A DNA stretch of 64,000 nucleotides, from the NCBI RefSeq assembly GCF_017309185.1, contig NZ_JAEKJZ010000003.1, forward strand, positions 248,001-312,000. The letters are read 5' to 3'. Both the position numbers and the translations under genes were made by a program. The notes below the pieces were generated by a model, which saw only the letters and a list, made by a program, of their open reading frames with translations, ran no database searches and was not told the origin of the DNA. Every line of letters starts with the position of its first letter. The stretch's first letter is position 1. Of the stretch, positions 48,271-59,251 are shown one piece after another. The stretch comes from Roseibium aggregatum. Its GTDB lineage: Bacteria > Pseudomonadota > Alphaproteobacteria > Rhizobiales > Stappiaceae.

Positions 48271-49186
48271 CGTGAGTGAGACCGTTCTGGTCGTCGACGA
48301 TACGCCGTCCTCGCTGGGCATGCTGACCGATGCCCTTGAAGAGGCCGGCTTCACTGTTCTGGTCGCCCAGGACGGCCGCAAGGCGATCGAGATCGCGCAC
48401 CGGGTGACGCCCGATGCGGTGCTGATGGATGCGGTCATGCCGGAACCGGACGGCTTCGAGACCGCCAAGCGCATGAAGGCCGTGGAGGCGCTGCGCGACG
48501 TGCCGGTGCTCTTCATGACGGGACTGAGCGAAACGGAGCATATCGTCCGGGGGCTGGAATCGGGCGGCGTCGACTACATCACCAAGCCAGTGAACCCGGA
48601 AGAGCTGATCGCGCGGCTGAAGGTGCATATGTCCAATGCGCGCAATTCCCACAGCGCCCATGTGGCGCTCGACGTCTCGGGCCGCTTCCTGCTGTCGGTG
48701 GATCTTTCGGGAAACATCTGCTGGGCGACGCCCCAGGCCATGGCGCTGATCGCCGTCGGCGACAAGAGTGCGGAGGGCAAGCTGGGCCGGCTGCCGTCGC
48801 ATGCCGTCGACTGGCTGCGCACGCTGCTGCTCGAAGGCGGCAAGGTGCCTCAGATGGGCCAGGAAGTCACCGCCGCGATGGCGGGACGCGAGCTGAAATT
48901 CAGCTATGCCGGGCTGATCAGCGCCGGCGAGCATCTGCTGCGCGTCGACGAGGTCTCCGAAGGCAAGCCGGCGGATGTGCTGAAGGCCGCCTTCGAGCTC
49001 ACCGAGCGCGAGGCGGAGGTGCTCACGTGGATCGCCAACGGCAAGTCCAACAAGGAAATCGCCGCCATCCTCGACATGAGCCCCAGAACGGTGAACAAGC
49101 ATCTCGACCGAATTTTCGGCAAGCTCGGGGTGGAGAACCGGACTTCCGCCGCGATCGTATCGCTCCGGAAGCTGCTGGAGACGTGA
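48251..49186 (+). CDS. Response regulator with LuxR-type HTH
   Basis: This 311-aa protein has a receiver domain at about 12-125 with phospho-Asp in LMDAVMPEPDGFE and Lys in YITKPVNPEE. An intermediate domain of about 110 residues carries no known motif (VALDVSGRFLLSVDLSGNIC). A C-terminal LuxR HTH at about 245-311 carries TEREAEVLTWIANGKSNKEI. It starts ATG 48251 inside the kinase gene (20 bp overlap), so the pair is co-translated. It is the output of the NCS1-fused kinase and most likely controls the divergent amide operon. A decayed copy of its HTH end lies at 51397-51630. Confidence 0.92.
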   Translation: MIMNAPNVSETVLVVDDTPSSLGMLTDALEEAGFTVLVAQDGRKAIEIAHRVTPDAVLMDAVMPEPDGFETAKRMKAVEALRDVPVLFMTGLSETEHIVRGLESGGVDYITKPVNPEELIARLKVHMSNARNSHSAHVALDVSGRFLLSVDLSGNICWATPQAMALIAVGDKSAEGKLGRLPSHAVDWLRTLLLEGGKVPQMGQEVTAAMAGRELKFSYAGLISAGEHLLRVDEVSEGKPADVLKAAFELTEREAEVLTWIANGKSNKEIAAILDMSPRTVNKHLDRIFGKLGVENRTSAAIVSLRKLLET

Positions 49187-51396: not shown

Positions 51397-51630
51397 GGTC
51401 CGGAAAGGCAAGCCGGCGGACGTCCTGAACGCGGCTTTCGAGCTCACCGGGCGCGTGCCGGAAGTCCTCACCTGGATCGCCAACGGCAAGTCCAACAAGG
51501 AAATCGCCGTTCTCCTCGACAGGGGTCAAGGACCGTGAAAAAGTATCCTGACGGCGTTTTCGGGAAGCTGGGCGTGGAGAACCGGACGTCGGCGGCGATT
51601 GTGTCGCTAAGGAAGTTGTTGGAGACGTGA
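51397..51630 (+). pseudogene. Decayed partial copy of the LuxR-type HTH tail of the response regulator
   Basis: Conceptual translation gives GKPADVLNAAFELTGRVPEV then LTWIANGKSNKEIA, nearly identical to the C-terminal HTH of the regulator at 48251-49186. It then suffers a frame disruption with a stop (GTGA near 51537). The last segment, GENRTS-like DNA ending in GTTGGAGACGTGA at about 51618-51630, again matches the regulator's final codons. There is no start and no receiver domain. It is a duplicated 3' fragment lying just past dld and immediately left of the AT-rich island. Confidence 0.85.
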
Positions 51631-52036
51631 GGGGGGCGGCGGGTAAACATTAAACTGATGTTGACAGAAGGTAACTTCTTGGTGCGTCAGTGAGTGGGGC
51701 TAGAATTGCCGACCATTGCGCTATGCGAAGCCGCTTGATTGGCCAAAAAATCAAGTTTGGTATAGGAAGTAGTTCTTGTCATCTCACTAGATTTTGATTC
51801 TTGTTTGCATTTTTAATTTTATTTTTCTTGTCTGCCGTGGGTTTGCAAAGGCGCTTACGTGGTAGGTTTTGTTGTCGCGCCTAGAAAATTTCTCCTCAGT
51901 CGATCTCAAATTATTGTCGCGAAGTTTCTTCACGGTGAAAAATATTTTCTTTGAAGGATCGGAACTGCGAAACGAATCATATAAGTTGTAAGTTCCTATT
52001 AATGCAATTCGGAGATGTTTATCGTAGGGGGGTGTT
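51631..52036. other. AT-rich left edge of the HerA-NurA island
   Basis: Base composition drops sharply from about 51640. I see no convincing gene: the short frames here are Lys/Ile-rich translations of AT-rich DNA. The herA promoter should be in this stretch. A poly-G patch GGGGGG near 52026-52032 serves as a plausible ribosome-binding site. Confidence 0.55.
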
Positions 52037-54187
52037 TTGCACAACGATATTCTTTCAGAAATAACTCAAGAAGCTAACTTAAGTAGATCCTCCGACGCGG
52101 GACGGGAGCTGGTGTCGTTCTTGGATCCAGAACTCACCATAGGGGAATTGCTTGCAATAAATTTTCAAGACGCTCAAGTCTTGGTGCATGATTATGCCCG
52201 TCAGAAGGTGAGAGGCCTACCTCACGGTTCGTTTCTCGTGGCTAGTCGGATGAGCTTGGACCCTTCCGCTATTATCCCCGCCGAGGACGAAGAGGCGGCT
52301 TTGGTGCTTCTCCGAATTGTAGGCGACTACCAATTACCAAACGCCCGCCTGATGGAGGACTATCGGTTCCAAGCCGGTATGCGCGCGACAGACAGTGAGG
52401 AGACCTGGGATCACCCAAATCGGGTGGATGAATGGACCAAAAACAATTTATCCTACGGGGGGTATAAATGCCGAGTCCTTGGCACCTTTCGGATGAAAGA
52501 AGCGGAAAACGGAGTTTACAAGTTTTCGTTCGGAGCCGACCTCGTCAACTACTACTCTGGGCGAGGTATGAAGGTTTACAAGCCGGTCGGAAAGCTCTTG
52601 TCCAACATAGTGAATTTTCAAAAGACAGTGGGAACAAGTGAATTTGGAGAAGCTGGGCGTCTTCGCATTGGGCGTGTGAGGTTTGCGGCAAGTGAGATAG
52701 GGGTTGACGAAGCTTTGGATAACGTTCCGGTCGAAGTCGATCCCACTGACTTTGTATCTCGACGTACATTTTATGGCGGGATGAGTAGAGGCGGTAAATC
52801 AAACGCTATGAAGATCACTGCAAAGGCTGTGTATCTTCTGCGTGCGAGGTCAAACTCAGCGAGAGTTGGGCAACTGATTTTTGATCCAAACGGGGAATAC
52901 GCTAACGCGAATATTCAAGATGGCGGCTCCATCCGGTCTGTCTATGAAGAGATTTCTGGTTTGCAATACGCAGACGAGATTGCGACATATGGTTTGAATG
53001 CTCACCCAAATGATCCTCAGCGCAAGATAGTAAAGATCAATTTTTACGGTGCTACGCCCACAAATTGGGGCGACTCCGCGGTTGTCAGAACTGCGCTCGA
53101 TCAACTTTTTGTTGGCAAACAAATAATTGCGACCTCACTTGGTGAAGCCGGAGAAAAATATATTCTAGCATTTCGTGATGCGAACATTGTTGTGCCAGAT
53201 GACCTTTCCAGCCGAGGTGATCAAACCCGTCTTAAGAGAGAGGTGCAAGTTTACCGCGGGATACTTCATGCCGCGGGATTTGATGCGCCTAACCAGACAG
53301 CGAATATCAGAGGTTTATTTAGTCGTGATCTTCGCGAAGCCATGCAGAACAACCGATGTGACGGCGACAAACAGACCAATATCGCTGCGGCTGGCGCCAT
53401 CCTTGAGGACGATACTGTATCTTGGGGAGATTTTGTGGATGCTCTTCGTGGATTGCTGTTATTCATGGAAGAGAGAGACAGTGGTTGGAGTGACTTCGAT
53501 AGGACTTACAGGGACGGCCATAACGGTCGACCTTGGGATCGGGGAACGTTAAATAATCTTCTGCAGATTTTTAGGTATCCAAACGGTGTCCGAAGTTTCA
53601 TGAGCTTGACAAGGCTGCATTCTGCCAGCTCAGCAGTAGATTACGCGCAGGAAGTAGTGAACGACCTGCGCCTTGGGAAACTGGTGATATTTGATCAATC
53701 GACCGGAGATCCTGATCAAAACGTTGCTGCGGCAGAAAGAATTTTGTGGGCAATATTCAATCGCCAAAAAGCTGACTTCGTGGATCCGTCGGTTGACTCT
53801 GACGGACAGATCGTACCGCCTCCTCCTGTGATGGTTTATCTTGAGGAAGCGCACAACTTGCTACCCGCCGGCGGTGGGAAAGATGAGCTTCGTACTATTT
53901 GGGCAAGAACCGCTAAAGAAGGTTCGAAGTACCGGATAGGAATGGTTTTGGCTACACAAGAACCATCCTCTGTAATGCCAGCGATTTTGAAGAATACAGA
54001 CAATTGGTTTGTGGCGCACTTGAATAATACGGATGAAGTTCGATCGTTGTCAAAATTCTACGATTTTGAGGATTATGCTCATCAGATAAAAAGTATTTCA
54101 GATCCTGGTTTTGTTCGAATGCGGACGCTATCTAATCCTTTTACTATTCCAGTCCAAATCGATCTCTTTCAGGCGAGGTCTAACTGA
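52037..54187 (+). CDS. herA: HerA-family hexameric ATPase/translocase
   Basis: This 716-aa protein of the HerA/FtsK superfamily has an N-terminal HAS-barrel-like region, Walker A GGMSRGGKSN at about 247-256, and Walker B PVMVYLEEAHNLLP at about 597-610 with catalytic Glu. It ends with the sensor/Arg-finger region KYRIGMVLATQEPSSVMPAI. HerA pumps double-stranded DNA and partners NurA nuclease in DNA-end resection; HerA relatives also act with nucleases in bacterial anti-phage systems. The start is the TTG at 52037 after GGGGGG, with no ATG nearby in frame. Codon use is AT-rich (AGA, ATA), unlike the flanks, suggesting transfer. nurA follows after 5 bp. Confidence 0.9.
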   Translation: MHNDILSEITQEANLSRSSDAGRELVSFLDPELTIGELLAINFQDAQVLVHDYARQKVRGLPHGSFLVASRMSLDPSAIIPAEDEEAALVLLRIVGDYQLPNARLMEDYRFQAGMRATDSEETWDHPNRVDEWTKNNLSYGGYKCRVLGTFRMKEAENGVYKFSFGADLVNYYSGRGMKVYKPVGKLLSNIVNFQKTVGTSEFGEAGRLRIGRVRFAASEIGVDEALDNVPVEVDPTDFVSRRTFYGGMSRGGKSNAMKITAKAVYLLRARSNSARVGQLIFDPNGEYANANIQDGGSIRSVYEEISGLQYADEIATYGLNAHPNDPQRKIVKINFYGATPTNWGDSAVVRTALDQLFVGKQIIATSLGEAGEKYILAFRDANIVVPDDLSSRGDQTRLKREVQVYRGILHAAGFDAPNQTANIRGLFSRDLREAMQNNRCDGDKQTNIAAAGAILEDDTVSWGDFVDALRGLLLFMEERDSGWSDFDRTYRDGHNGRPWDRGTLNNLLQIFRYPNGVRSFMSLTRLHSASSAVDYAQEVVNDLRLGKLVIFDQSTGDPDQNVAAAERILWAIFNRQKADFVDPSVDSDGQIVPPPPVMVYLEEAHNLLPAGGGKDELRTIWARTAKEGSKYRIGMVLATQEPSSVMPAILKNTDNWFVAHLNNTDEVRSLSKFYDFEDYAHQIKSISDPGFVRMRTLSNPFTIPVQIDLFQARSN

Positions 54188-54192
54188 TCGCA

Positions 54193-55176
54193 ATGCCGTA
54201 CGAAAATCAGCGTGCTTCCGGAGAATCTTTGATTGCGCTGCAACAAAGTGCAATTTTTCAGGAATTTGCGGGTAAGATTAGAGCGCCTGAAACAGTCGCC
54301 GTTGATCCTCTCCGACCTACAGACATTCCTCGGCCGGCTTCCGAAATCAATCGCATTGTTGCTATCGATGGTTCACTTGTGACTGAAACACTTCGGGATG
54401 GCTTTCCTGGCGCAGAGGCGAGTCTCGTTCAGTTGGCTTTGGTCTATGTCGATCTTAGGAAGCTAAAAACTGAACCCGCGGCAAAGATAATTCCGCCTCG
54501 TGCGTTCAACACAATGGATACCGCCCACACACTTCAAACTGTGCTTCCGGGTAGGAATGTTGTGCGAGAGGATGGACTTTCTCCGCGAGATTACTTTCGT
54601 GTTTCAGTTTTCGAGGCATTGCAGGGCAAAGTTGTTGCTCAGGGACATGAAACCCTGTTGGAGACCTACGAAAGCCTTGTCTCCGGTAGGGATACACCGT
54701 TTAAGTGCCCCGCCTGCGGGAACGAAATAATACCAACCGTGGGTAGGAGCAACTGCCGTTGTGGTGCTGAAGTATTGAGCACGGACCAGCTAAGGTTTCA
54801 TGAGCGGTTCAACGAAACCGGTCCAAATGGTGAACCTCACGGTGAAGTCATGAGGTTCTTGGAAATTGTTCTCCTTGTAAACGTCCTTCGATATTTTCTA
54901 ACTTCGGAGTCTGCAGTTCGCGTTCTGCCGGATATTGCATTTGTTCTTGATGGTCCGCTAGCTGCTTTCGGGCAATATGCGTCGTTGGCACCTTACGTCA
55001 AAGCCGAATTACGACGCATTCACGAAGAGTCTATCAAAAGAACTGGCCGTGGATTGCTGATATTCTCACTAATAAAGACCGGGCAATTTGTCGAACATTT
55101 TGAGCGAATAGACTTTGATCGTGAAAAAGGGCCCGACAGTTTTTTTCCTCGCAGAGTGCGCTTCTCCCAAGTATAA
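54193..55176 (+). CDS. nurA: NurA-domain nuclease, N-terminal part (frame interrupted)
   Basis: This 327-aa frame has NurA motifs: catalytic Asp59 in NRIVAIDGSLV, Asp253 in FVLDGPLAAFG and the GLLIFSLIKTGQFVEHF strand. A four-Cys zinc ribbon is inserted at 172-190 (CPACGN, CRCG), which is not part of minimal NurA. The frame ends prematurely. After DSFF at the T7 run (55140-55146) it reads PRRVRFSQV-stop, while the -1 frame continues as LLPSIKYIHRNIVY into the conserved NurA C-terminus (55251-55508). Full length would be about 438 aa. It lies 5 bp after herA. It is either a frameshift mutation, a programmed or slippage-based frameshift, or an assembly error in a homopolymer. Confidence 0.85.
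   Translation: MPYENQRASGESLIALQQSAIFQEFAGKIRAPETVAVDPLRPTDIPRPASEINRIVAIDGSLVTETLRDGFPGAEASLVQLALVYVDLRKLKTEPAAKIIPPRAFNTMDTAHTLQTVLPGRNVVREDGLSPRDYFRVSVFEALQGKVVAQGHETLLETYESLVSGRDTPFKCPACGNEIIPTVGRSNCRCGAEVLSTDQLRFHERFNETGPNGEPHGEVMRFLEIVLLVNVLRYFLTSESAVRVLPDIAFVLDGPLAAFGQYASLAPYVKAELRRIHEESIKRTGRGLLIFSLIKTGQFVEHFERIDFDREKGPDSFFPRRVRFSQV
55140..55146 (+). other. T7 slippery run, probable frameshift point in nurA
   Basis: Seven T residues in the phase T TTT TTT relative to the nurA frame. Reading the tract with one extra T, or slipping -1 on it, joins the nurA N-terminal frame to the open -1 frame that encodes the rest of the NurA fold. An AAAAAGGG run lies just upstream (55124-55131) and could act as an internal Shine-Dalgarno-like stimulator. 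Confidence 0.6.
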
Positions 55177-55250
55177 AATATATTCATAGAAATATTGTTT
55201 ACCGGCCAGATGATGCAAAGGAATGGGGGAAAGCAACATATTTTGGCAGA

Positions 55251-55508
55251 ATGGTACTTTACAAAAGTAAGACTGGGCAAAAGATGGTTGTAAACACGGC
55301 GATTACAACAGAAGAGGCGGATGATTTATCTAATGTCTCATTGGGTGCGTACCCAAGACTTGGTGATGTCCTCACTATTGTAGATAGGTTATCCACTTAC
55401 CTGTTTGAAGGAGGTTTTGTCCCAATTGTTCGGGCACACTCTCACGCTGCAATTCCATTGAAACTTGGTGGTGAAATATTGAAGAACCTCTTTGACGAAG
55501 ATGTTTGA
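55251..55508 (+). CDS. NurA C-terminal segment in the -1 frame
   Basis: From the ATG at 55251 this reads as an 85-aa protein, but the same frame is open back to 55125. It encodes LLPSIKYIHRNIVY and KEWGKATYFGRM before the ATG, which look like native NurA sequence. The segment contains YPRLGDVLTIVDRL and PIVRAHSHAAIPLKLGGE; the RAH...AI element is the conserved C-terminal active-site block of NurA. I therefore treat it as the missing end of nurA rather than a separate gene. Internal initiation at 55251 to give a small subunit is a less likely alternative. The stop overlaps the methyltransferase start by 8 bp. Confidence 0.7.
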   Translation: MVLYKSKTGQKMVVNTAITTEEADDLSNVSLGAYPRLGDVLTIVDRLSTYLFEGGFVPIVRAHSHAAIPLKLGGEILKNLFDEDV

Positions 55509-56646
55509 CGGGGAAGTAGATACTTGGCGCATTGGAACGCCAGAAGGTCGATGGGCAGGCTTTGGGCCTTACTACGCGATGTTTCCGGTCAATTTCGCAC
55601 GTTATATCATTTCAGAATACAGCAATTTAGGTGAAACTGTAATTGATCCGTTTTGTGGGCGCGGAACGACCAACTATGTTTCTCAAGTCCTAGGCAGAAA
55701 TTCATATGGATGTGAATTGAATCCTGTCGGTTGGTTATACGCAAAGACAAAGGTAAGTCCGGCACGACAGCTAGGGCGCGTATTGCGGCGAATAGACGAG
55801 GTGTCAGCTTCGCAAACAGGAGGAGATCGCGATCCAGTCAATGAGTTTCAGGATTGGGCGTGGTGTCCAGAAGTTCTTGGATTCATCAATAGTGCAAGAC
55901 GAAACTTGGATTGGAGAACCTCGGTCGTTGATCGAACGGTAGCTTCTCTGATGTTGGTTTATCTCCATGCCAAGCTGGGAGGTGGTCTTTCCAACCAGAT
56001 GCGACAAAGCAAGTCCATGGCACCGGACTATGCGGTCCGTTGGTGGAAAGAGAGAAAAATGCGCCCACCATTCGTTGATCCAAGTAAATTCTTAAAATCT
56101 CGCGCAGAGTGGCGATATGCTAAGGGTTTCAGCGCGGCACATGGGCGCAGTCGCTTGTACTTTGGAGACGCAAGAGTCGGTCTTGAACGCTACAATTGCG
56201 AACTGGCGTCTTTGATACTTACGTCACCACCTTACCTGGGCATCACCAACTATCAATATGATAACTGGATTCGTTTATGGGCGCTCGGGGGACCAGAACT
56301 CCCCGAATGGAATCAAAAATATCGATACGCAAACAAAGAAACCTATGACGCTCTCATCAACGATGTATTTGGTGCTCTTGCCCTCAAATCCCGAGCAGAT
56401 GCAGTAATCGTCGTTCGGACTGACGCACGTAAATTCACATTGGAAACTACCGCATACTCAATGGACCGCGTCTGGCCACACCATCAATTGTTTGGGCGTA
56501 AGTCGAAAGCAAGCAAGCCTACGCAAACATCTCTTTTTGGCGATAAATCGGAAAAGCCAGGAGAAATTGACTTGATTGCAATTCCTCAAGGAAAGGAACC
56601 GCCTAGAGGGTTTATTGACGTGGCCACATGTGCAGTAATCTCGTAG
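55501..56646 (+). CDS. SAM-dependent DNA methyltransferase (N4-cytosine/N6-adenine type)
   Basis: This 381-aa enzyme has motif I TVIDPFCGRGTTNYVSQVLG at about 46-65 for SAM binding and motif IV LTSPPYLGITNYQYDNW at about 240-256. The TSPPY form is typical of amino-methyltransferases acting on DNA. About 190 residues lie between the motifs and may hold the target-recognition region. The ATG at 55501 overlaps the nurA C-terminal frame by 8 bp; an in-frame TTG lies 9 nt earlier. No restriction endonuclease gene is adjacent, so HerA-NurA may be the DNA-degrading partner and methylation the self-marking step. That pairing is inference. Confidence 0.85.
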   Translation: MFDGEVDTWRIGTPEGRWAGFGPYYAMFPVNFARYIISEYSNLGETVIDPFCGRGTTNYVSQVLGRNSYGCELNPVGWLYAKTKVSPARQLGRVLRRIDEVSASQTGGDRDPVNEFQDWAWCPEVLGFINSARRNLDWRTSVVDRTVASLMLVYLHAKLGGGLSNQMRQSKSMAPDYAVRWWKERKMRPPFVDPSKFLKSRAEWRYAKGFSAAHGRSRLYFGDARVGLERYNCELASLILTSPPYLGITNYQYDNWIRLWALGGPELPEWNQKYRYANKETYDALINDVFGALALKSRADAVIVVRTDARKFTLETTAYSMDRVWPHHQLFGRKSKASKPTQTSLFGDKSEKPGEIDLIAIPQGKEPPRGFIDVATCAVIS

Positions 56647-56929
56647 GGAATGAGTGAAATGCTTCTCCTGTACGGACATCACCTCGGTCCGTAATTGCCA
56701 TTTTATTTCAAAGAGCGGGCTATCCAATGAACGTCCAAAAGCACGGGTGAATGAAAGCCGCCAATCCAATTTACCTCGCCCTCACAATCTCCACTGTCCA
56801 TGGCCTATCTCCTCATTTCGCTGCGCCCAGTCTCAGACCCGATGTAGAGATTGAACTGGCCGCGCGAAAGCTTCTAGAGGCTGGAGCAGGTCTCATTGCA
56901 TGTTCGACGAAGAAGGGAACTCGTCCCCC
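56647..56929. other. Right edge of the island, no gene seen
   Basis: About 280 bp between the methyltransferase stop and the convergent DUF3604 stop. It begins with a 7-bp hairpin. Composition returns to GC-rich from about 56820. I found no tRNA, integrase remnant or direct repeat matching the left edge. Confidence 0.5.
56671..56693 (+). terminator. Probable terminator after the methyltransferase gene
   Basis: TACGGAC (56671-56677) pairs with GTCCGTA (56687-56693) across a 9-nt loop and is followed by AATTGCCATTTTATTT. It lies 25 nt beyond the methyltransferase stop. Confidence 0.6.
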
Positions 56930-59251
56930 TCACCGAAACACATAAACCGGGCTCGTCCAGGCGCGGGTGCCGTCTTCGAGGGTGACGCGGATGTAGAGCG
57001 GGTTGTCTTTTTCCGCTTCGATGGCGAGCTTGCGGGTGAAGCGCATCGACGTTGCGGCGTTTTCGTCCGGCAAGCGGTAGAGCTTGAAGAAGCGCGGCAG
57101 CTCGCCGGAGTCGTCGAAGATCGTGTCGTCGTAGCCGATATCGGCGATGTCGATTTCGGTGGTGACCAGCGGGGTTTCGATGGCGAGCGTGCCGGCGCTC
57201 GGGTCGGCGAGGGTCAGGTCCGCGCCGCCGGAATTGCCGGTGGTGAGCGCCTTCCATTTCACCTCGCTGTCGCTGACGAGATCAAGCGTTTTGTCGCGGT
57301 TCAGGAAGTTGACCGGGACCGCCTGCCGGATCGTGTTGCCGGAGAGCTTCGCACCGCCGTCCCAGATCACTTCGCGGAAGCGGCCGCGATATTCCGCACC
57401 TTCCCAGTGCAGCCGGATGCGGGCGCCAAGGTCGGCTTCGGCGTAGGGGCGGACGGTCTCAAGGAGATCGAGGCCGTTGAAGATGTCGACCCGCTCGATG
57501 GCGCAGGCGGCGTCCACGGCAACGGAAAGCTCCGCGCCGCCCTCGGCCAGGCGGACGATGTCGCCCATCATGGCGGTCTTGCCGGTATGGGACAGGGCCC
57601 CGCCGAGCGCCGGGTCGTCATGGTAGATCTCCGCTTCCGCTTCGAAGGTGGCGGTCACGTCGAGGACGACGCGGCCGGTCGGGCCGCCGGTGGTGCCGTA
57701 GTGGCGGCGCTTGCGCATGCAGTCGAGGAGGGCGGGGCGGGAGAGCTCCGCGGCGTTGAAGCAGGTGAGGCCGCCGATGGCGCCGAACTTGCCGGCGCCC
57801 GGATAGCTGGCGCCCGGGCGTCCCTTGTGGCCGTCGGAATTGCAGACGACGCCGACCCGGTAGCCGAGCTTGAAGGCGTCGTGCAGCAGCCACTCGAAGG
57901 TGCCCCAGGAGGAATGCACCTCGACCGACTTCTCGAAGCGGCCGTCATGGGCCACCCGGATATCGGCGTAGCGCCCGCCGCAATGGGCGTAGCAGACGAC
58001 ATCGTCCTCGCCGTTCTTGGCGAAGGCCTCGAAGAGCTCCGCCGCCGTGAAGCAGTCGGTTCCGGCGGTCGTCTGGTCCTCGATCAGCGCATGGGACGAG
58101 CGGCGGATCGTGCGCCCCTCCACGGGAAAGAACACGTTGCGGTCGCCGCCGAGCGCCGTGTTGCCGGACCATTCGTAGCCGGGCATCGCCACGAAGCTGC
58201 CCGTCGCGTCGAATTCCGCGGTGATGCGGTTGAGCTCGCCCCAGAAGGCGTCGGTGATCTGGAAGTCGTTGCCCTGGTGGCCGCAGGCGTCCATCCAGGC
58301 GAGATCGCGGGCGAAGGCGAAATAGTCCCAGGCGCTGCCGGTGCCGATGGTCTCCTCGGACTGGCCGTGCATGTCCGCCCAGAAATGGACCAGCTCCAGG
58401 TCCTCGACGATCAGCGGGTTGGTCTTCGCCACAAGGGTTCCGTCCTCGCTCCGGACCGTCACCGACACCTTGCCGGGCGTGGCGACGACAAGCCCGGGGA
58501 GGGTGAAGGACCGGTCGCCCGGTGTCAGTTCCACGCTTGCCGGCAGGCCCTCGATGGCGCCGTCGGCCTCCAGCAGAAAGCGTGCCGCGCAGCGGTCGGA
58601 GGGGTTGCCCCATTTGTCCTCGCCCTTGAGCTTCAGGGCGAAGCTCTCGCCCGGGCGCCGGAGCGAGGGCAGGGCGGCGACATAGCGCTCCGGTTCGCCC
58701 GGCACGATGGAAATCATCGGCTGGACCGGCAGCGGCTGGAAGTTGAAGGTCGCGATCGGGTCGACGAGGATGCGGAACTCGAAGGTCTTTTCACAGAAGG
58801 TCTGGAGCCGCATGCCCGGCCCGCCATGGTCGGTCACGCCGAAGCGGATGGTGAGCGTGTCGCCTTCCTGCAGGAATCCCTTCACCACCTTGATCCAGAG
58901 CGTGCGGTCCCACGGGCGGACGTTGCCCTTCGGGTCCCAGCGCAGCTGCAGGACGGCGCCGTTGGAGGCCTCGACCGTGCAGTAATTGGGGCCAGCGGGA
59001 TCGTCGAACTGCGGATTGCTCTGGTCGGAGGCGAAGCGGAAGACGATGCGCAGGCTGCCGCTGTCGTCGATGCCGAACTTGCCGGCCGTATAGACCAGCG
59101 TGAAGGACGCATGGGAGCCGGCTTCGAACCCGCCTTTCGGGGAAATCTCGGCGTGTCCCAGAAGTGCTGGATCGATCGCGTGGCGGATCACACCGCTGTC
59201 CATCGCTTCCCAGGGCCGGTCGGCGGCGGAGGTCGAGAGGTTTTCAGTCAT
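56930..59251 (-). CDS. DUF3604-family protein
   Basis: This 773-aa protein of the DUF3604 family is PHP-like in its metal-ligand pattern: FWADMHGQSEETIGTG at about 285-300, GHQGNDFQITD, MPGYEWSGNTALGGDRNVFF, VCYAHCGGRYADIR and VCNSDGHKGRPG. The many His and Asp residues suggest a divalent-metal hydrolase. The N-terminal 280 residues are beta-rich, possibly Ig-like. The start is the ATG at 59249-59251, with AGAAAGA upstream; a TTG start 21 nt earlier is possible. It has no signal peptide. It follows the TRAP genes on the same strand (57 bp), so it probably processes the TRAP substrate in the cytoplasm. Confidence 0.87.
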   Translation of the reverse strand: MTENLSTSAADRPWEAMDSGVIRHAIDPALLGHAEISPKGGFEAGSHASFTLVYTAGKFGIDDSGSLRIVFRFASDQSNPQFDDPAGPNYCTVEASNGAVLQLRWDPKGNVRPWDRTLWIKVVKGFLQEGDTLTIRFGVTDHGGPGMRLQTFCEKTFEFRILVDPIATFNFQPLPVQPMISIVPGEPERYVAALPSLRRPGESFALKLKGEDKWGNPSDRCAARFLLEADGAIEGLPASVELTPGDRSFTLPGLVVATPGKVSVTVRSEDGTLVAKTNPLIVEDLELVHFWADMHGQSEETIGTGSAWDYFAFARDLAWMDACGHQGNDFQITDAFWGELNRITAEFDATGSFVAMPGYEWSGNTALGGDRNVFFPVEGRTIRRSSHALIEDQTTAGTDCFTAAELFEAFAKNGEDDVVCYAHCGGRYADIRVAHDGRFEKSVEVHSSWGTFEWLLHDAFKLGYRVGVVCNSDGHKGRPGASYPGAGKFGAIGGLTCFNAAELSRPALLDCMRKRRHYGTTGGPTGRVVLDVTATFEAEAEIYHDDPALGGALSHTGKTAMMGDIVRLAEGGAELSVAVDAACAIERVDIFNGLDLLETVRPYAEADLGARIRLHWEGAEYRGRFREVIWDGGAKLSGNTIRQAVPVNFLNRDKTLDLVSDSEVKWKALTTGNSGGADLTLADPSAGTLAIETPLVTTEIDIADIGYDDTIFDDSGELPRFFKLYRLPDENAATSMRFTRKLAIEAEKDNPLYIRVTLEDGTRAWTSPVYVFR

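Follow-up and report, generated by a model that had tools for sequence, protein, structure and literature searches.

What might a HerA-type DNA motor, a NurA-type nuclease and a DNA methyltransferase do together when their genes are packed side by side in an AT-rich stretch of a bacterial genome? The question is raised by a 64,000-nucleotide stretch of the 6.1-Mb genome of Roseibium aggregatum (G000:C3:248001-312000, hereafter the window), in which the three genes form a cassette at 52,037-56,646, all on one strand. We put the probability at roughly two in three that this cassette is a restriction-like defence module, in which the methyltransferase would mark self and HerA-NurA would degrade unmethylated DNA. 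The features are as follows:

51640..56930, no strand assigned: AT-rich, horizontally acquired island; edges approximate, placed by the drop in GC content and the bounded similarity to the Ruegeria locus L002.
52037..54187, plus strand: HerA/FtsK-superfamily DNA translocase of 716 amino acids; identified by PF01935 over its cut-off, alignments and TdpA as nearest solved structure.
54193..55176, plus strand: NurA-type nuclease, N-terminal piece of 327 amino acids, with conserved IDG and DGPLA aspartates.
54706..54762, plus strand: four-cysteine, zinc-ribbon-like insert in NurA, read from the sequence and conserved in relatives.
55125..55176, plus strand: interval of the NurA reading-frame change, with a seven-T run at 55,140-55,146 inside it.
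55125..55508, plus strand: C-terminal piece of NurA, read in a second frame, with an HSHAAIPL motif, placed by translation and relatives.
55492..56646, plus strand: PF01555 DNA methyltransferase of 384 amino acids, with the motif DPFCGRG followed by TSPPY.

In the proposed mechanism, the methyltransferase would mark host DNA as self and the HerA ring translocase would feed incoming duplex DNA into the NurA-type nuclease, in the manner of TdpAB and of HerA-NurA complexes. DNA without methylation would be degraded and methylated self DNA spared. The computed basis for a defence function comprises the genes present and their operon overlaps, the conservation of motifs in motor and methyltransferase and of candidate nuclease residues, TdpAB as nearest kin of both motor and nuclease, the switching of methyltransferase type along the HerA tree, occurrence in phage, plasmid and viral-contig records, and horizontal arrival. 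Complex formation, sensing of methylation, a target motif and an anti-phage effect of the cassette are what we infer.

The motor, translated from a TTG start codon, carries a Walker A motif (GMSRGGKS, residues 248-255) and an EEAH motif (residues 603-606), of which the G, GKS and EEAH residues do not vary among 42 aligned sequences. Both by sequence profile and by fold, its closest match is TdpA of TdpAB (PDB 8wet, 8wfd, 8y1k), and the fold of an intact relative of the nuclease is nearest to TdpB and then to NurA; a HerA-type motor is paired with a NurA-type nuclease in both systems; a PDB search using the NurA sequence profile returned nothing at E-values up to 1. The original prediction had raised the possibility of a new variant, and the existence of this close solved relative means that the novelty of the combination was overstated. 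HerA is about 130 amino acids longer here (716 vs 586 in TdpA), as is NurA by about 80 (439 vs 358 in the resolved TdpB chain), four-cysteine insert included. The methyltransferase gene occupies the place that TdpC has in TdpABC, of which T. antranikianii is presumably the source species. The sulfur-modification gene itself is absent from the operon: taking TdpC to be a member of PF01507, we found no PF01507 gene on contig C3, and the only matches in the genome are on contigs C1 (two) and C9 (one). TdpAB is reportedly blocked by phosphorothioate, and TdpA is said to grip the DNA backbone.

NurA follows HerA after a gap of 5 nt. In alignments of 55 and 60 NurA relatives, D59 and K296 never vary and D254 hardly does; in line with NurA biochemistry, the aspartates are presumably catalytic. 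The ribbon cysteines are likewise near- or fully invariant (four in the 55 sequences, three in the 60), and the predicted ribbon, which had been put forward as the mark of a new variant, is present and common to the family. With the Pfam NurA profile (PF09376), the N-terminal piece scores 12.8 bits against a cut-off of 21 and the whole genome gives 0 matches; PF09376 is present in some homologues, and the fold of NurA is shared. The gene is not intact. The N-terminal piece ends at a stop codon at 55,174-55,176, the conserved C-terminal part continues in a different frame, and the two are open together only within 55,125-55,176, whereas a single frame of 437-443 amino acids is found in all five close relatives (L002-L006). 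The NurA gene of this genome is broken by a frameshift, either a mutation or an assembly error. Programmed frameshifting was considered and judged unlikely, since L002 lacks the seven-T run and NurA is read in a single frame in each of the five close relatives. This copy of the cassette may be inactive, with NurA probably disabled; unless an assembly error has produced the frameshift, a methyltransferase and an idle motor are probably all that is left here. Loss of NurA with retention of the methyltransferase is, we infer, a tolerable order of decay.

The methyltransferase gene overlaps the C-terminal NurA piece by 17 nt, and the same overlap is seen in Ruegeria L002; the tight packing of three genes described in the original prediction stands for HerA, the methyltransferase, the 5-nt gap and the 17-nt overlap, and fails for an intact NurA. 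DPFCGRG before TSPPY is near- or fully invariant across 12 methyltransferase sequences, and profile matches in the PDB include a putative modification methylase, cytosine-N4 enzymes and adenine enzymes. An SPPY motif goes with N4-cytosine (m4C) methylation, which suggests N4-cytosine as the product of the window enzyme. Type II methyltransferase models are among the best 25 of its 58 PADLOC matches. Separately, relatives of this methyltransferase lie beside a convergent 4.2-kb AAA gene on two rhizobial plasmids (L073, 6974-12333; L075, 6950-12300), a pair that is perhaps a separate methyltransferase-based system.

To describe the family, we assembled 20 distinct loci (the window, L002, L003, L004, L005, L006, L047, L048, L049, L050, L051, L052, L053, L076, L077, L078, L079, L080, L081 and L114) from genome contigs, whole genomes, plasmids, phages and viral contigs, which form a fetched set and no random sample. 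Duplicates were merged (L016 and L111 into L003; L017 and L113 into L052; L018 and L112 into L053; L082-L086 into L079, L078, L077, L081 and L076, respectively), and a sister Vibrio phage (H8) stands outside the set. A NurA of the same family follows HerA in 19 of the 20 loci, being cut by the contig end in L076 and L080 and assigned by annotation in L114; in the remaining locus, L081, the contig ends after HerA. A DNA methyltransferase of one of two unrelated types adjoins HerA-NurA in 15 of the 20. Nine loci have the PF01555 type (the window, L002-L006, L052, L049 and L051), including a haloarchaeal plasmid with a gap of 90 nt before the methyltransferase (L049) and a Deferribacter megaplasmid in which the gene lies upstream (L051). 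The other six have a D12/Dam-like enzyme, in line in L053, L078, L079, L080 and L081 and convergent in L050, a temperate Vibrio phage. Pfam D12 was confirmed in L053, L078, L050, L080 and L077; the D12 label of L079 and L081 comes from a local profile, L079 also matching NCBIfam dam below its cut-off (75.3 vs 114.85). The contig of L076 is cut off, which leaves the presence of a methyltransferase undecidable there. In most loci measured, the methyltransferase gene overlaps the gene beside it or lies almost directly against it.

As controls, we took 18 loci of other HerA families (L054-L071), none of which matched the NurA profile or the D12 profile (0/18 for each, E-value 1e-3). Weak matches to the PF01555-type profile were to proteins of 914 and 972 amino acids in L057 and L067, and L054 and L055 have a gene of 379-380 amino acids beside HerA. 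On viral contigs, a first scan with the window HerA gave one stretch that fitted the pattern and was no relative; alignment queries A1 and A2 gave six loci each, on the same six contigs. Among 7,999 scored candidates, counted as HerA proteins alone and without their neighbour genes, 459 matched the window HerA within an E-value of 1e-3 and 2,855 matched the L079 HerA, the weak end of the latter being a mixed set; the 120 L079 matches listed are all at least 61% identical, under names that include Oscillospiraceae, Fusobacterium and Bacteroidales.

A HerA tree was built from 21 rows (17 family members and four outgroups), leaving out L005, L006 and L051 (partial HerA). To fit its starred branches, the D12 label must have changed two or more times, and so must the PF01555 label; L049 (PF01555) and L080 (D12) are sisters with support of 100/100; L053 and two outgroup rows sit on long branches and are unsurely placed. 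Judged from this tree, unrelated methyltransferases appear to have been recruited at least twice beside HerA-NurA. A Tdp-type engine from which self DNA is protected by base methylation would be expected to pair with unrelated methyltransferases in this way.

Several loci have further genes of note nearby. The Deferribacter HerA is interrupted by an IS200/IS605-TnpB element with HerA pieces on both sides (L051, 6914-10712). A ThsB-type TIR protein and, after it, an 8xMP membrane protein are encoded about 4.5 kb upstream of the triad of genome G321 (L052, 3384-4321), and a HipA-type gene adjoins the triad of a metagenomic alphaproteobacterium (L003, 1444-2766). Resolvase-domain genes occur near four triads (L002, 15805-16377; L004, 15011-15634; L006, 4694-5146, partial; L053, 15563-16138), while a fifth has a phage integrase nearby (L079, 13231-14454).

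In Roseibium the cassette was horizontally acquired and is accessory in the genus. Between 51.5 and 57.0 kb, 1-kb windows have a GC content of 0.45-0.50, against mostly 0.60-0.69 in the flanks (minimum 0.546 near 45 kb), and GC content at third codon positions is 0.464 in HerA, 0.427 in the N-terminal NurA piece and 0.439 in the methyltransferase, against 0.853, 0.864, 0.886 and 0.901 in four flanking genes, which bears out the deviant composition and codon use first proposed. DNA similarity to Ruegeria L002 (75%) covers 52,033-56,579 with none beyond, and this confinement to the cassette makes the observation more than chance. A full-length HerA of the window kind was found in 0 of 36 other genomes of the genus, so that the cassette is not core chromosome there; one congener (G021) has a 74-residue match (E-value 4.3e-7) in a different HerA-like frame of 593 amino acids. 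Among 385 genomes of the class (own included), long HerA matches were confined to the own genome, G151, G321 and G208, and across 398 genomes of the phylum (own included) both a search with the L002 NurA and profile A2 at an E-value of 1e-30 recovered the own genome only. Searches around G151 (5 genomes), G208 (17) and G321 (16) added no loci to those already known.

No tRNA was found, and no direct repeat longer than 11 nt between the two edges of the island. As originally predicted, neither an integrase nor a restriction enzyme is visible among the gene products scanned, small antisense open reading frames (85-103 amino acids) in the island lying outside that scan. The right flank was matched in 10 of 45 genomes of the genus (own included), full-length only in the own and three others. 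The left flank had some match in 42 of the 45, of which 20 (own included) cover at least 1,000 bases of dld and many of the remainder only a response-regulator remnant. An empty site was not identified, no congener having both flanks close together in match tables that leave the junctions themselves unread. The remnant (51405-51630), just left of the island, duplicates in degenerate form the 3' end of a LuxR-type response regulator gene at 48960-49186 (82% over 227 nt), with a D-lactate dehydrogenase gene between the two.

The cassette was also compared with known defence systems. Run on HerA, both NurA pieces and the methyltransferase, PADLOC lists HerA models, mad8 (E-value 1.2e-9, on the motor domain) and type II methyltransferase models, the last among the best 25 of 58 matches; the core proteins of BREX, DISARM or MADS were not found among these proteins of the island; with NCBIfam HerA_antiphage, the window HerA scores 53 bits against a cut-off of 800. 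The anti-phage complexes SIR2-HerA and HerA-DUF4297 have the HerA motor fold in common with the window HerA but have a SIR2 or DUF4297 partner, neither of which was found beside the window HerA, whose neighbour is NurA-like and followed by a methyltransferase. HerA/FtsK capture and BREX-related capture systems place a HerA motor in restriction-like neighbourhoods, and the available main text of the two papers does not contain the word NurA (PMC10853773, PMC12839542). PD-Lambda-5 protects E. coli and is described, in the available text, as a compacted prophage version of a restriction-modification plus abortive infection system (PMC9519451). Its component PD-Lambda-5_B is matched by the D12 methyltransferases of L078 and L050. 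The window methyltransferase is of a different class: PD-Lambda-5_B is not among its best 25 of 58 matches, any match being weaker than an E-value of 7e-6, and PD-Lambda-5_A is not among the matches listed for the triad proteins scanned. The cassette does resemble restriction-modification in the broad sense, a DNA methyltransferase being linked to a nuclease-family gene, here broken. Apart from the ICETh1 operon of Thermus thermophilus, no description of the triad was found in the available text of the literature examined, and a published account may exist.

Several points weigh against a defence module guarded by methylation. A broken NurA lends no support to the idea that the cassette is active in its present host. 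Nor is this type of NurA named by any model of PADLOC or NCBIfam, except that the L050 protein weakly matches PDC-S58 (E-value 0.0013). In L077 the D12 gene lies about 2.1 kb away on the opposite strand. Three cyanobacterial plasmids (L047, L048 and L114, near-copies of one lineage) carry a helix-turn-helix gene with HerA-NurA, and their annotation shows no methyltransferase within 7 kb (L047, L048) or 9 kb (L114); L047 and L048 have no match to either methyltransferase profile (PF01555-type or D12); in this lineage HerA-NurA can persist without a linked methyltransferase. Such loci would suit an effector triggered by phage factors, with the methyltransferase as a travelling orphan or a counter-restriction enzyme, and a two-component HerA-nuclease defence complex is indeed on record, in a paper whose available main text has no word beginning with "methyl" (PMC11291478). 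We hold this to be quite improbable, given the overlapping or nearly abutting methyltransferase genes and the apparent repeated recruitment of unrelated ones. Better odds, although still unlikely, go to DNA donation, with the motor exporting DNA in cell-to-cell transfer, the nuclease trimming it and the methylase accessory. This is what the ICETh1 operon (Tth111II, a NurA-like protein, TdtA and a PF01555 methylase) serves with similar gene content, a further point against defence; according to the available text, tdtA and the nurA-like gene are required and the methylase only slightly (PMC5365140, PMC7767461). A figure legend also lists T. antranikianii among the best homologs of TdtA. Compared by length and description, however, TdtA (568 amino acids) and its NurA (377) are shorter than the proteins here (716 and about 440), the type IIG enzyme of ICETh1 and any transfer gene are absent among the scanned products of the island, and the pair also occurs in a temperate phage and on viral contigs with the other methyltransferase type.

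The protecting mark might instead be phosphorothioate supplied in trans, with the adjacent methyltransferase serving otherwise. TdpAB, the nearest solved relative, is said to be blocked by it, and a phosphorothioation-type locus lies on contig C9 (L138, G000:C9:182000-191482), encoding a DndC-like protein (386 amino acids), a DndD/PbeC-like protein (694), a DndB/DpdB-like protein, a 182-amino-acid protein without a match, and a possible DndE-HerA fusion of 509 amino acids, in which a HerA-like ATPase domain is joined by a match to DndE slightly below the cut-off (24.2 vs 25). Phosphorothioate could thus be present in this cell, which also counts against protection by methylation; we nevertheless regard protection in trans as very improbable, the methyltransferase being the neighbour in 15 of 20 loci and contig C3 having no gene of the PAPS-reductase family. 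Scarcely any credence goes to an ordinary DNA-end-resection pair with a methyltransferase beside it by chance. Archaeal and Deinococcus HerA-NurA have the motor-nuclease pairing and the folds in common with the window pair, but they are structurally less similar to it than TdpAB, and the pair is accessory in the genus, occurs in phage and plasmid records and is linked to a methyltransferase, a linkage kept with two enzyme types; we know of none for HerA-NurA repair pairs. For the archaeal pair, the authors suggest degradation of viral double-stranded DNA, in the available text (PMC12977600).

The restriction-like module thus remains our preferred reading: by sequence comparison, the cassette is widespread and nearest to TdpAB, with a predicted methyltransferase gene in the modification role. 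The original suggestion of a mobile, restriction-like cassette that cuts by means of a translocase-nuclease agrees with its accessory status and with the frequency of the methyltransferase association, the three cyanobacterial loci lacking it notwithstanding; both refuting tests proposed with that suggestion left it standing. More tentatively, at somewhat less than even odds, the loci may represent a large cross-domain restriction class in which self is told from non-self at a ring translocase: one conserved Tdp-type HerA-NurA engine, in place of a site-specific endonuclease, would read absent base methylation and would have been combined more than once with unrelated, exchangeable methyltransferases (PF01555 or D12). 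If this is true, Tdp-type motor-nucleases would not be tied to phosphorothioate, the same engine being fitted with two unrelated classes of base methyltransferase in Alphaproteobacteria, a halomonad (Vreelandella, L004), Deferribacter, a haloarchaeal plasmid, a Vibrio phage and viral contigs. It would raise the question of how a backbone-gripping motor senses a methyl group on a base, for which the extra length of HerA and the zinc ribbon of NurA would be candidate sites, and the defence catalogues would gain a restriction-like system not recognised as such by PADLOC 2.0 or NCBIfam.

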